From: an uncultured Pelagibacteraceae bacterium
GTDB lineage: Bacteria > Pseudomonadota > Alphaproteobacteria > Pelagibacterales > AG-422-B15
DNA length: 34,576 nt
Direction of reading: 5' to 3'
Assembly: GCA_902605215.1 (NCBI GenBank)
Contig: CACLBX010000006.1
Span: forward strand, 1 to 34,576
The position numbers were made by a program, and so were the translations under genes. Below are positions 3,541-26,448 of this stretch, in pieces (the stretch's first letter is position 1; each line of letters opens with the position of its first letter). The notes under the pieces are model-generated. The model saw only the letters and a list, made by a program, of their open reading frames with translations. It had not been told where the DNA came from and did no database searches.

Positions 3541-3630
3541 GGAAAGGTGGCCGAGTGGTTGAAGGCGCACGCTTGGAAAGCGTGTATGCGGGTGACCGTA
3601 TCGTGGGTTCGAATCCCATCCTTTCCGCCA
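3541..3630 (+). tRNA. tRNA-Ser (anticodon GGA), 3' CCA encoded
   Basis: GGAAAGG...CCTTTCC acceptor stem, long variable arm, TGGGTTCGAATCCCA T-arm, anticodon loop CTTGGAAAG, ends GCCA. Confidence 0.96.
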
Positions 3631-5767: not shown

Positions 5768-6970
5768 ATGAAAACTTTTAGACATTCTTCTTCTCTATTA
5801 GTAATAGTTGGTGGCTGTGTTCTTTTATTAGTTTCGTTTGGTATAAGACACTCATCAGGTTTGTATTTAATACCTATTTCAGATCATATTCAGACTGGAC
5901 GAGAAGTGTTTGGCTTCGCTATTGCAATTCAATTCCTTATGATTGGGATTGGATCTCCAATCTTCGGAGCTATTGCTGATAAATATGGTTCGTCTATCGC
6001 TGGCCTTTATGGAGCAATATTTTTCTTAATTGGTCTCTATATGATGTCTCTTGTAGAAGGATCAGGTCTCCTAATAGTTTCACAAGTAGTTTTCGGTTTT
6101 GGTTGTGCTGGATGTGGAACAGCAGTAATTCTTGGAGCTGTAGGAAAAGCGGTTACAGGAAAATACCAAACGTTGTCGTTGGGTATTGTGATGGCTGCAG
6201 GTTCTTTAGGGCAATTCTTAATTGTCCCACTATCTGGATTTATGATCGAAGCAACTGATTGGCAAAAATCAATCGTCTACCTTTGTTTTATATCCTTAAT
6301 AATGATTTTATTCGCTATAACTCTAACAAAATCGTCTTTTAATTCAGGAAAGGATGATCAAGCTGCTCAATCATTAGCATCTGTACTTAATGAGGCCTTT
6401 GCAAATAAAAGCTATGTGTTATTAACGGTAGGTTTTTTTGTATGCGGATTTCATGTTTCATTTGTAGCAACCCATTTACCAGCTTATTTAACTGATCTCT
6501 CATTGCCTTTATGGATTGGTTCTTGGTCACTTGCTTTAATTGGTTTATTTAATGTTTTTGGGACTTTATATTTTGGTCATTTAGGTGATCAAAATTCTAA
6601 AAAAAATCTTCTAGTCATTTTGTACACGCTTCGTGCACTTTTATTCTTAGTATTTATTTTTCTTCCTAAAACTGAGATAACAGTACTAATTTTTGCTGCA
6701 TTACTGGGTATTCTTTGGCTCTCAACTGTTCCTCTTACCAGTGGTATTATTTCTGTAATTTTTGGGACCAAATATATGTCTATGCTGTATGGCTTTACAT
6801 TCCTTTCACATCAAGTTGGTTCATTCATGGGCTCATGGTTTGGAGGTCGTTTTTATGATTTTTATGGATCATACGATATTATGTGGTGGGTATGTGTAGT
6901 TCTTGGTTTTGTATCTGCATTAATGCATTTTCCAATTACTGAAAAACCAATCAAAAGAAAAATTGCTTAA
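5768..6970 (+). CDS. MFS transporter (monocarboxylate/OFA-like, 12 TM)
   Basis: Repeated hydrophobic segments, GAIADKYGSSIAG and YFGHLGDQNSKK loop motifs. Confidence 0.88.
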   Translation: MKTFRHSSSLLVIVGGCVLLLVSFGIRHSSGLYLIPISDHIQTGREVFGFAIAIQFLMIGIGSPIFGAIADKYGSSIAGLYGAIFFLIGLYMMSLVEGSGLLIVSQVVFGFGCAGCGTAVILGAVGKAVTGKYQTLSLGIVMAAGSLGQFLIVPLSGFMIEATDWQKSIVYLCFISLIMILFAITLTKSSFNSGKDDQAAQSLASVLNEAFANKSYVLLTVGFFVCGFHVSFVATHLPAYLTDLSLPLWIGSWSLALIGLFNVFGTLYFGHLGDQNSKKNLLVILYTLRALLFLVFIFLPKTEITVLIFAALLGILWLSTVPLTSGIISVIFGTKYMSMLYGFTFLSHQVGSFMGSWFGGRFYDFYGSYDIMWWVCVVLGFVSALMHFPITEKPIKRKIA

Positions 6971-7036: not shown

Positions 7037-7103
7037 AGTTAAGAAATACAAATAATTTTTTTTTTATTTAATAATTTTTTTTAATAAATTATTATTTATT
7101 TAT

Positions 7104-7210
7104 CGGAACAACAAAGATCGAAAGCCTTTCGGGGAGTTTGTTCAGAGTTAGTCCGGAATTTCGGGGCGATATAGAGACCTTTAGGGGTATTTGTAGTGCC
7201 CCGTTTTTTT
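7104..7210 (+). ncRNA. Candidate structured RNA / 5'-leader attenuator upstream of the LysE-family gene
   Basis: GC-rich island in an AT-rich intergenic. GAACAA(7106-7111)/TTGTTC(7138-7143) enclosing CGAAA-gcc-TTTCG (7119-7131); CGGGGC(7162-7167)/GCCCCG(7198-7203) followed by T7. Confidence 0.5.
7162..7210 (+). terminator. Intrinsic terminator
   Basis: 6-bp perfect GC stem CGGGGC/GCCCCG with a 30-nt internal segment that can itself fold (ACC/GGT), followed by TTTTTTT (7204-7210). Confidence 0.6.
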
Positions 7211-7245
7211 GTGCTTTGTGTCTCAAAATCGGATACAAATTTCAT

Positions 7246-7872
7246 ATGTTTTTAGACTTTACCCTTCTTTATTTTTTTATTCCTTTGTTTTTTGTTATTT
7301 CTATAACCCCAGGTCTTTGCATGACTCTTGCTTTAACTATGGGTATTACCATTGGCCTTAAAAACACGATGAAGATGATGGTTGGGGAACTCATAGGCGT
7401 ATTAATAGTTGCTGGAAGTGCAGTTATTGGTGGTGGGGCAATTATTTCATCATATCCAATGACATTTCTCTTTTTTAAATATGGGGGAGGAATTTATTTG
7501 ATGTTTGTAGGCTATCAAATGTTCAATTCAAGAGGATCATTAGCATTAAACTTAGACGGAACACATTCTTTTGAGATTAATTTTTTAAAGTTAGCAAGTC
7601 AGGGATTTATTACCGCAGTTGCAAACCCTAAGGGATGGGCTTTTTTTATTGCTATGGTACCTGCATTTATCAATTATGACTTAGCGCTCATGCCTCAGAT
7701 GTCAGCATTGGTCGTCATCATTTTAATAATAGAATTCATATCTTTGATGATTTACGCAACTGGTGGACAGATGCTCGGAATTATCTTGAAGAAACAAAAA
7801 AATATTCAATCAATAAATCGTTTAGCAGGTTTACTAATGGTAGGCGTTGGAATTTGGTTAGCTCTTAGTTAG
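7246..7872 (+). CDS. LysE/RhtB-family amino-acid exporter
   Basis: MFLDFTLLYFFIPLFFVISITPGLCMTLALTMGITIGLKNTMKMMVGELIGV...: LysE N-terminal signature (xPGP-like SITPGLC). The ORF-track start at 7138 lies inside the terminator-like region; start at 7246 preferred. Confidence 0.85.
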   Translation: MFLDFTLLYFFIPLFFVISITPGLCMTLALTMGITIGLKNTMKMMVGELIGVLIVAGSAVIGGGAIISSYPMTFLFFKYGGGIYLMFVGYQMFNSRGSLALNLDGTHSFEINFLKLASQGFITAVANPKGWAFFIAMVPAFINYDLALMPQMSALVVIILIIEFISLMIYATGGQMLGIILKKQKNIQSINRLAGLLMVGVGIWLALS

Positions 7873-8604
7873 ACTCTGTTTAAAAAGCATCCCAGGTCCT
7901 TTTGTTGATTCATTCCCAGAACCACGAAACATATGCCATATCATTGCTTGGTTTGAAGATACAACAGGTTTATTCAGTACGCGTTCTGCCTCATCTATTA
8001 TTTTAAATGTTTTCAAATTTGTGCATGAAATAAATACTGCATCACAATCATTTTTTCCAATTTCTAATATTTCTTTCAAACTTTCTCTTTCAGATATTCT
8101 TGCCACTACTGTGTCATCTGACTCATCAAATGACTTCTCTTTTGATATATTAAAGTTATCACTCTGAAGATTTTGTTTGAGTTTTTGACTTACAGATTGT
8201 TCATATGGTGAAACAAATGCAATATCCTTGCATCCAAAGCTATTAAGCGCTTCCTTAACAGCTCTTATTGGATCTGTTATAAAAGCATTTTTATGCCGCC
8301 CTTTAATTAATTTGTTTATTTTTTCAGAGCCAATTACCGTTGCACCCGAGGTACATGCATATCCAATACTGTTAAAGTCAATTTTTGGAAGTAGGTCTAC
8401 TGCAATTGGTAAATCATTTTCCATTTTTGCAAGATTTTCATTATTGACAGATTGGTTACAGGGAATCCTTGAGTGATAAATGGCAACACTCTCATCAAGC
8501 GTGCTTCTTATCTCTTGCTCAATTGTCTCATCACTTTGCAGTACGATTAATCCAAATCTCATACTGTAATAGTCTGGATCATCTAACTTAAAATTCTTCT
8601 CCAT
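7858..8604 (-). CDS. Asp/Glu racemase superfamily protein (maleate isomerase / arylmalonate decarboxylase-like)
   Basis: Two Cys-containing active-site motifs: YACTSGATVIG and AVFISCTNLKTF; PVVSSNQAMIWHMFR C-terminal motif. Confidence 0.85.
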   Translation of the reverse strand: MEKNFKLDDPDYYSMRFGLIVLQSDETIEQEIRSTLDESVAIYHSRIPCNQSVNNENLAKMENDLPIAVDLLPKIDFNSIGYACTSGATVIGSEKINKLIKGRHKNAFITDPIRAVKEALNSFGCKDIAFVSPYEQSVSQKLKQNLQSDNFNISKEKSFDESDDTVVARISERESLKEILEIGKNDCDAVFISCTNLKTFKIIDEAERVLNKPVVSSNQAMIWHMFRGSGNESTKGPGMLFKQSLTKS

Positions 8605-26287: not shown

Positions 26288-26338
26288 GAATTTATTTATT
26301 TAATAAACAACATTTAATGATCGTATGCTACAATATTT

Positions 26339-26430
26339 TGGGAGATTGAGTAGACAAGTTATTCGCCAATCCGGTCAGGTCTGAAAAGAAGCAGCCGCAA
26401 CGATGATATTTGGGTTACTTTGATCTCCCA
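26339..26430 (+). ncRNA. ffs: Signal recognition particle 4.5S RNA (bacterial small type)
   Basis: Conserved tip GGTCAGGTCTGAAAAGAAGCAGCC; closing ends TGGGAGAT/ATCTCCCA; lies immediately 5' of dnaX. Confidence 0.93.
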
Positions 26431-26448
26431 CAGAATTAATATAGATAG

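Follow-up and report, generated by a model that had tools for sequence, protein, structure and literature searches.

In the window, the stretch of 34,576 nucleotides analysed here (contig 6 of an 874-kb genome that is 53% complete), the region between the stop codon of an MFS gene (position 6970) and the ATG of a LysE-family exporter gene (position 7246) probably contains a gene for a stand-alone, non-coding small RNA, found in the SAR11 family to which AG-422-B15 belongs. RNA polymerase would start at around A7102, at the RNA's own promoter, and transcription would stop at the U-tract near position 7210, releasing an RNA of about 108 nucleotides made up of two hairpins, each located under a CCUUUCGGGG-type tetraloop. 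The released RNA would act in trans, most likely with the nearly invariant apical part of hairpin 1 presented to a protein, the ribosome or RNA polymerase and not used as an Hfq-type seed. Conservation, the geometry of promoter and terminator, the pairing of hairpin 2 and the independence from LysE follow from comparison of the sequences of homologous loci. The features are listed in Table 1.

Table 1. Features of the RNA unit and its surroundings (positions in the window).
Feature	Position	Strand	Basis
-35-like element, TTTAAT (putative, weak match to TTGACA)	7067–7072	+	position-wise conservation in 42 aligned loci
-10 element of the predicted sRNA promoter, TATTAT	7090–7095	+	conservation over 42 loci; also found in consensus scan
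Predicted sRNA gene of about 108 nt with two hairpins and an invariant AUCGG at its 5' end	7102–7210	+	DNA search, covariance model R1 and fold test
Hairpin 1 (P1), with basal CGG/CCG, A/U-rich middle stem and purine internal loops	7104–7155	+	minimum free energy (MFE) structures
Apical hairpin of hairpin 1, CGAA-AG-CCY-UUCG-RGG-AG-UUUG, nearly invariant	7119–7140	+	columns 18–39 of alignments A1/A4
Terminator stem (hairpin 2) with CCUUUNGGGG as its cap	7162–7203	+	covariation
U-tract of the intrinsic terminator	7204–7210	+	terminator scan; homologue alignment
LysE-family exporter gene, regarded as a neighbour of the RNA unit	7246–7872	+	PF01810, E 1e-20

Extent, predicted promoter and distribution of the RNA unit

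The unit lies in a GC-rich island, as the preliminary description of this region had reported; the GC content is about 48%, compared to 7–20% in the neighbouring intergenic DNA. The sequence elements named there are all found in the letters: GAACAA/TTGTTC, CGAAA-gcc-TTTCG, CGGGGC/GCCCCG followed by T7, and the repeats TTTCGGGG (at 7127 and 7159) and TTTAGGGG (at 7180). Its layout holds with regard to the 35-nucleotide gap between the T-tract and the ATG, while the limits of the unit have been corrected to 7102–7210, preceded by the promoter at 7090–7095. Covariance model R1 scores the unit at 129 bits. The predicted fold of the 108-nucleotide segment 7102–7209 has an energy of -35.3 kcal/mol (z = -3.3) and is better than that of all 200 dinucleotide shuffles; the fold z-scores are weak in two of the homologues, L022 (-1.8) and L042 (-1.0). 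When the genus's two subgroups are compared, sequence identity is 78% in the RNA, 52% upstream of it and 37% in the stretch separating it from LysE.

A TANNNT box ends 5 to 7 nucleotides before the invariant ATCGG in all 42 homologous loci, where composition shuffles lead one to expect 20.6 of 42; as the loci are related, the count does not amount to 42 independent events. The middle bases of the box vary (TATTAT, TAGAAT, TAACAT and TATCGT), and the count takes in the three loci with other neighbour genes. At -35 to -30 from the start of the RNA, most homologues have TTTAAA or TTTAAT. This predicted promoter puts the transcription start at about A7102. At the distal end, the terminator scan gives one terminator-like site in the island, and seven to nine T residues follow GCCCCG in nearly all homologues. 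Two attributes of a stand-alone small RNA gene, an upstream promoter of its own (on sequence evidence) and a conserved intrinsic terminator, are thus present.

Judged from its reading frames, the RNA segment is not coding, because the reading frame of LysE extends upstream for no more than six codons in most genomes of subgroup B and because a 2-nucleotide length difference between the subgroups breaks the frames on both strands. The longer open reading frame starting at TTG 7138, which the preliminary description had raised as a test, is an extension that is not conserved. An open reading frame on the minus strand was also discarded: it is open in single frames, but the frames change between the subgroups.

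Conservation in relatives, also put forward as a test, is found. Searches of the DNA combined with model R1 revealed one strong copy in 40 of the 43 genomes from the genus of the host; those in which it was missed, three in number, are 55–64% complete. Two of the three genomes of the sister genus g4, of the same family, contain one copy each, and no RNA was found in genera g2 and g3 of this family, which include a 98%-complete genome. Around 244 sampled Pelagibacterales genomes from outside the host family yielded no credible copy and 289 genomes sampled from the class yielded the window's own copy only, bearing in mind that the filters were stricter whenever a search took in more than 40 genomes, so that very diverged copies could be lost. 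Family f2 (including genome G058) likewise gave no credible copy; model matches at 14–19 bits occur there, and those inspected resemble ordinary short terminators or coding sequence. When 84,980 named genomes were scanned for the pattern of the conserved core, it was present in 39 stretches, nearly all from Pelagibacteraceae or Pelagibacterales and including the single amplified genome (SAG) AG-422-B15. Carriage by viruses was considered as well, and the core pattern is not matched exactly anywhere in the IMG/VR contigs. By this distribution, the RNA belongs to the SAR11 family containing AG-422-B15.

A copy of SAR11 type is also located on a 4-kb contig (CAJWRJ010000047.1) in a metagenome-assembled genome labelled "uncultured Legionellales". 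Its score and sequence equal those of several copies of the AG-422-B15 group, and the label is probably the result of misbinning.

Predicted secondary structure

The MAFFT alignment (A1) is off by one column for loci L040 to L042; the two hairpins were realigned separately (A3 and A4) before pairs were counted. In hairpin 2, 92.4% of the cells are paired and 18 cells are changed on both sides. Its covariation score was reached by none of 500 shuffles and slid controls are 42–70% paired; kinship between the sequences may make the shuffle control look better than it is, and the weight is carried by the slid control together with four pairs that are changed on both sides. Covariation supports the predicted terminator hairpin, and together with conservation bears out the assignment of CGGGGC/GCCCCG plus T7 as an intrinsic terminator.

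Hairpin 1 is similar in outline in the MFE structures of L001, L015, L040, L041 and L042. In L016, of subgroup B, it folds differently at the base, and in the models this subgroup may form a different base of hairpin 1. The apical hairpin shows no covariation, because nothing varies there, and the basal stems contain few compensatory changes and many unpaired cells. Covariation, suggested earlier as a check, is hence seen in hairpin 2, while in hairpin 1 it is weak or uninformative; pairing in the apical part is plausible. The pairing of CGAAA with UUUCG and of GAACAA with UUGUUC, as drawn in the preliminary description, is not the conserved one, although the letters are present: the homologues keep CGAA-AG-CCY(UUCG)RGG-AG-UUUG, and L042 contains CCGAAAUCCCCUUGGGGAGUUUG without a UUUCG partner.

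Mutually exclusive folds, with copies of CGGGG competing for the single CCCCG, had been proposed too. In the calculated ensemble, which is free of pseudoknots and ligands, the alternative with CGGGG copy 1 has a weight of about 5e-10 and costs 15 kcal/mol. CGGGG copy 3 is lost in L040 and L041. Bistable CGGGG/CCCCG switching is absent from the predicted ensemble, and this proposal was abandoned.

Gene neighbourhood and relation to LysE

LysE is located directly 3' of the RNA in 39 of the 42 loci. The distance from the U-tract to its ATG is 27–35 nucleotides in nearly all of them and near-constant within the subgroups (35 nucleotides in one, mostly 28 in the other). With a strong terminator 5' of the gene, such an arrangement would fit a transcription-attenuation leader or riboswitch, in which a ligand or translation opens the terminator and LysE is made when its substrate accumulates. 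We consider this highly improbable. Three loci from two genera (L040, L041 and L042) keep the ATCGG, the TANNNT -10 box and the terminator, but the gene downstream is convergent instead of co-oriented; a leader function is therefore impossible there. In L042, from genome G020 of the host's own genus, the adjoining downstream open reading frame runs on the other strand, and LysE is found some 5 kb beyond. In the two loci of genus g4, the gene towards which the RNA converges is a small open reading frame (L040) or a DUF3299 gene, a firm gene (L041). The small open reading frames beside L040 and L042 have no match in Pfam. Furthermore, LysE orthologues without the RNA exist in three genomes: in G020 the orthologue is placed 6 nucleotides behind an alternative oxidase gene (L102, 700–2124), unlike in the rest of the genus, in G043 there is no RNA in front of it, and in G045 it is found on another contig, beside sequence that reads as the amino-terminus of a DEAD-box helicase. 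The folding results point the same way, with no antiterminator fold in the ensemble and covariation backing the terminator fold only.

Going by these comparisons, the RNA and LysE are separable, since LysE is absent beside the RNA in three loci and LysE orthologues occur without it. The preliminary description had left the choice between a LysE leader and an independent terminated small RNA. The latter is favoured by conservation of the RNA in unrelated neighbourhoods, as expected for a stand-alone gene, and the leader or riboswitch is mostly refuted at the level of sequence. The position before an exporter had suggested a riboswitch, a natural misreading that comparison across neighbourhoods corrects to an independent gene.

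Within the 28–35 nucleotide gap, no separate promoter for LysE is evident. Given this, the adjacency in most loci and the near-constant spacing, LysE may depend on read-through. The RNA could then have a dual function, as a trans-acting small RNA whose partial read-through supplies the LysE mRNA, tying the exporter to the small RNA promoter in the host's genus. This is compatible with a stand-alone small RNA, so the confidence placed in one does not exclude the other, and we regard it as rather unlikely. It would account for the adjacency being kept across most of the genus, but the local SAR11 gene order is conserved generally, with MFS, LysE, Amdase and carboxyl transferase genes staying together, so the adjacency needs no function; moreover, the gap itself is poorly conserved. 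The gene with the Pfam Amdase match (arylmalonate decarboxylase family; 7858–8604, minus strand) is convergent with LysE, overlaps its 3' end by 15 bases and is found beside it across the genus.

If the element were not an RNA gene but a conserved signal for termination or processing that belongs to the gene upstream, it would also end in a strong terminator, and in the window the MFS gene is indeed upstream on the same strand. Against this very doubtful interpretation, the upstream neighbour differs, being MFS in the window, DUF2061 in L037 and aldehyde dehydrogenase in L040; the -10 box is found directly 5' of the RNA in every one of the loci; and the first half of the RNA is as well conserved as the terminator half, with a mean column identity of 86% in each. 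In L037, of subgroup B, the DUF2061 membrane-protein gene (1151–1375) is inserted between the MFS gene and the small RNA, a place where the window has none.

Possible mode of action and comparison with known RNAs

Profile searches detected no Hfq gene in 51 SAR11 genomes and no ProQ gene in 39; likewise, CsrA was found in none of 39 and Rfam 6S RNA in none of 59. Control genomes were positive in each case, and many of the SAR11 genomes searched are nearly complete. The Hfq expected in the host of an Hfq-dependent small RNA is thus missing from the window's genome, at its 53% completeness, and from complete relatives. Within the RNA, the longest conserved exposed stretch 5' of the U-tract is four nucleotides long, the UUCG loop; most of the conserved bases lie in pairs, and a search for a conserved exposed seed gave none.

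The pairing of the conserved bases, together with the failure to detect an Hfq or a ProQ gene, makes protein binding likelier than an antisense seed. If the RNA is a stand-alone small RNA, we give protein binding, rather than a chaperone-assisted antisense seed, roughly even chances. The RNA may also pair directly with other RNAs, free of a chaperone. A more specific idea, which we put forward only tentatively, is that this lineage-specific small RNA captures a core protein (for example RNA polymerase, part of the ribosome or some unknown regulator) with its nearly invariant UUCG-capped hairpin. If so, it would stand in, specifically in SAR11, for the usual RNA regulators, as Hfq, ProQ, CsrA and 6S RNA are not detectable. 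SAR11 bacteria rank with the most abundant of the sea, yet their transcription regulators are few, and a conserved stand-alone small RNA in bacteria with none of these four detectable would offer an entry to chaperone-free RNA regulation.

The label "unclassified" in the preliminary description remains valid for Rfam: with release 15, the window and three divergent homologues, searched both at the gathering threshold and at permissive ones, gave only chance matches to the RNA and none at gathering. Among these are a match to CRISPR-DR66 and one of L041 to the lncRNA KCNQ1OT1_1, with a low E value (0.005) but far below gathering (14.3 of 70 bits). Elsewhere, the window contains a bacterial small SRP RNA (26337–26435; RF00169, 51.5 bits) and a tRNA-Ser(GGA) (3541–3630). 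The RNA appears to represent a small RNA family absent from Rfam and undescribed in open-licence papers, the literature covered; it may have been sighted earlier among ocean-metatranscriptome small RNAs.

The RNA shows a weak resemblance to suhB/mmgR (RF00519), an alphaproteobacterial small RNA with a GCCCUUC..GGG..GUUU hairpin and a U-rich terminator. It is seen in L016 alone (12.3 bits against a gathering threshold of 41, E about 2); the other homologues do not match, and this assignment was rejected. Like 6S RNA (RF00013), the RNA is a small single-copy RNA gene, but it contains two separate hairpins instead of a long rod with a central bubble, and the Rfam 6S model has no match in the window segment.

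Two elements known from SAR11 were also compared, using G058 (1,308,759 bases), which we take to be "Cand. P. ubique" HTCC1062. At the coordinates of Meyer et al. 2009, this genome has a RhtB/LysE-family gene, as expected. Neither the rhtB element (G058, 1297623–1297755) nor the copy of the SAR11_0636 element in this genome matches R1, and both were discarded as homologues. Meyer et al. described the two in "Cand. P. ubique" (PMC2704228). The rhtB element is a hairpin before a LysE-family (RhtB) gene, followed by a U-tract in about half of the examples (PMC2704228). The RNA presented here shares the location of a hairpin in front of a LysE-family gene; however, the rhtB element is a single bulged hairpin of unrelated sequence, before a LysE paralogue 24% identical to that of the window. 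The SAR11_0636 element differs in sequence and has a three-stem junction fold. Its authors judged it to be probably a separately transcribed non-coding RNA, as its neighbours vary (PMC2704228), and the two are alike in being structured SAR11 RNAs with varying neighbours.
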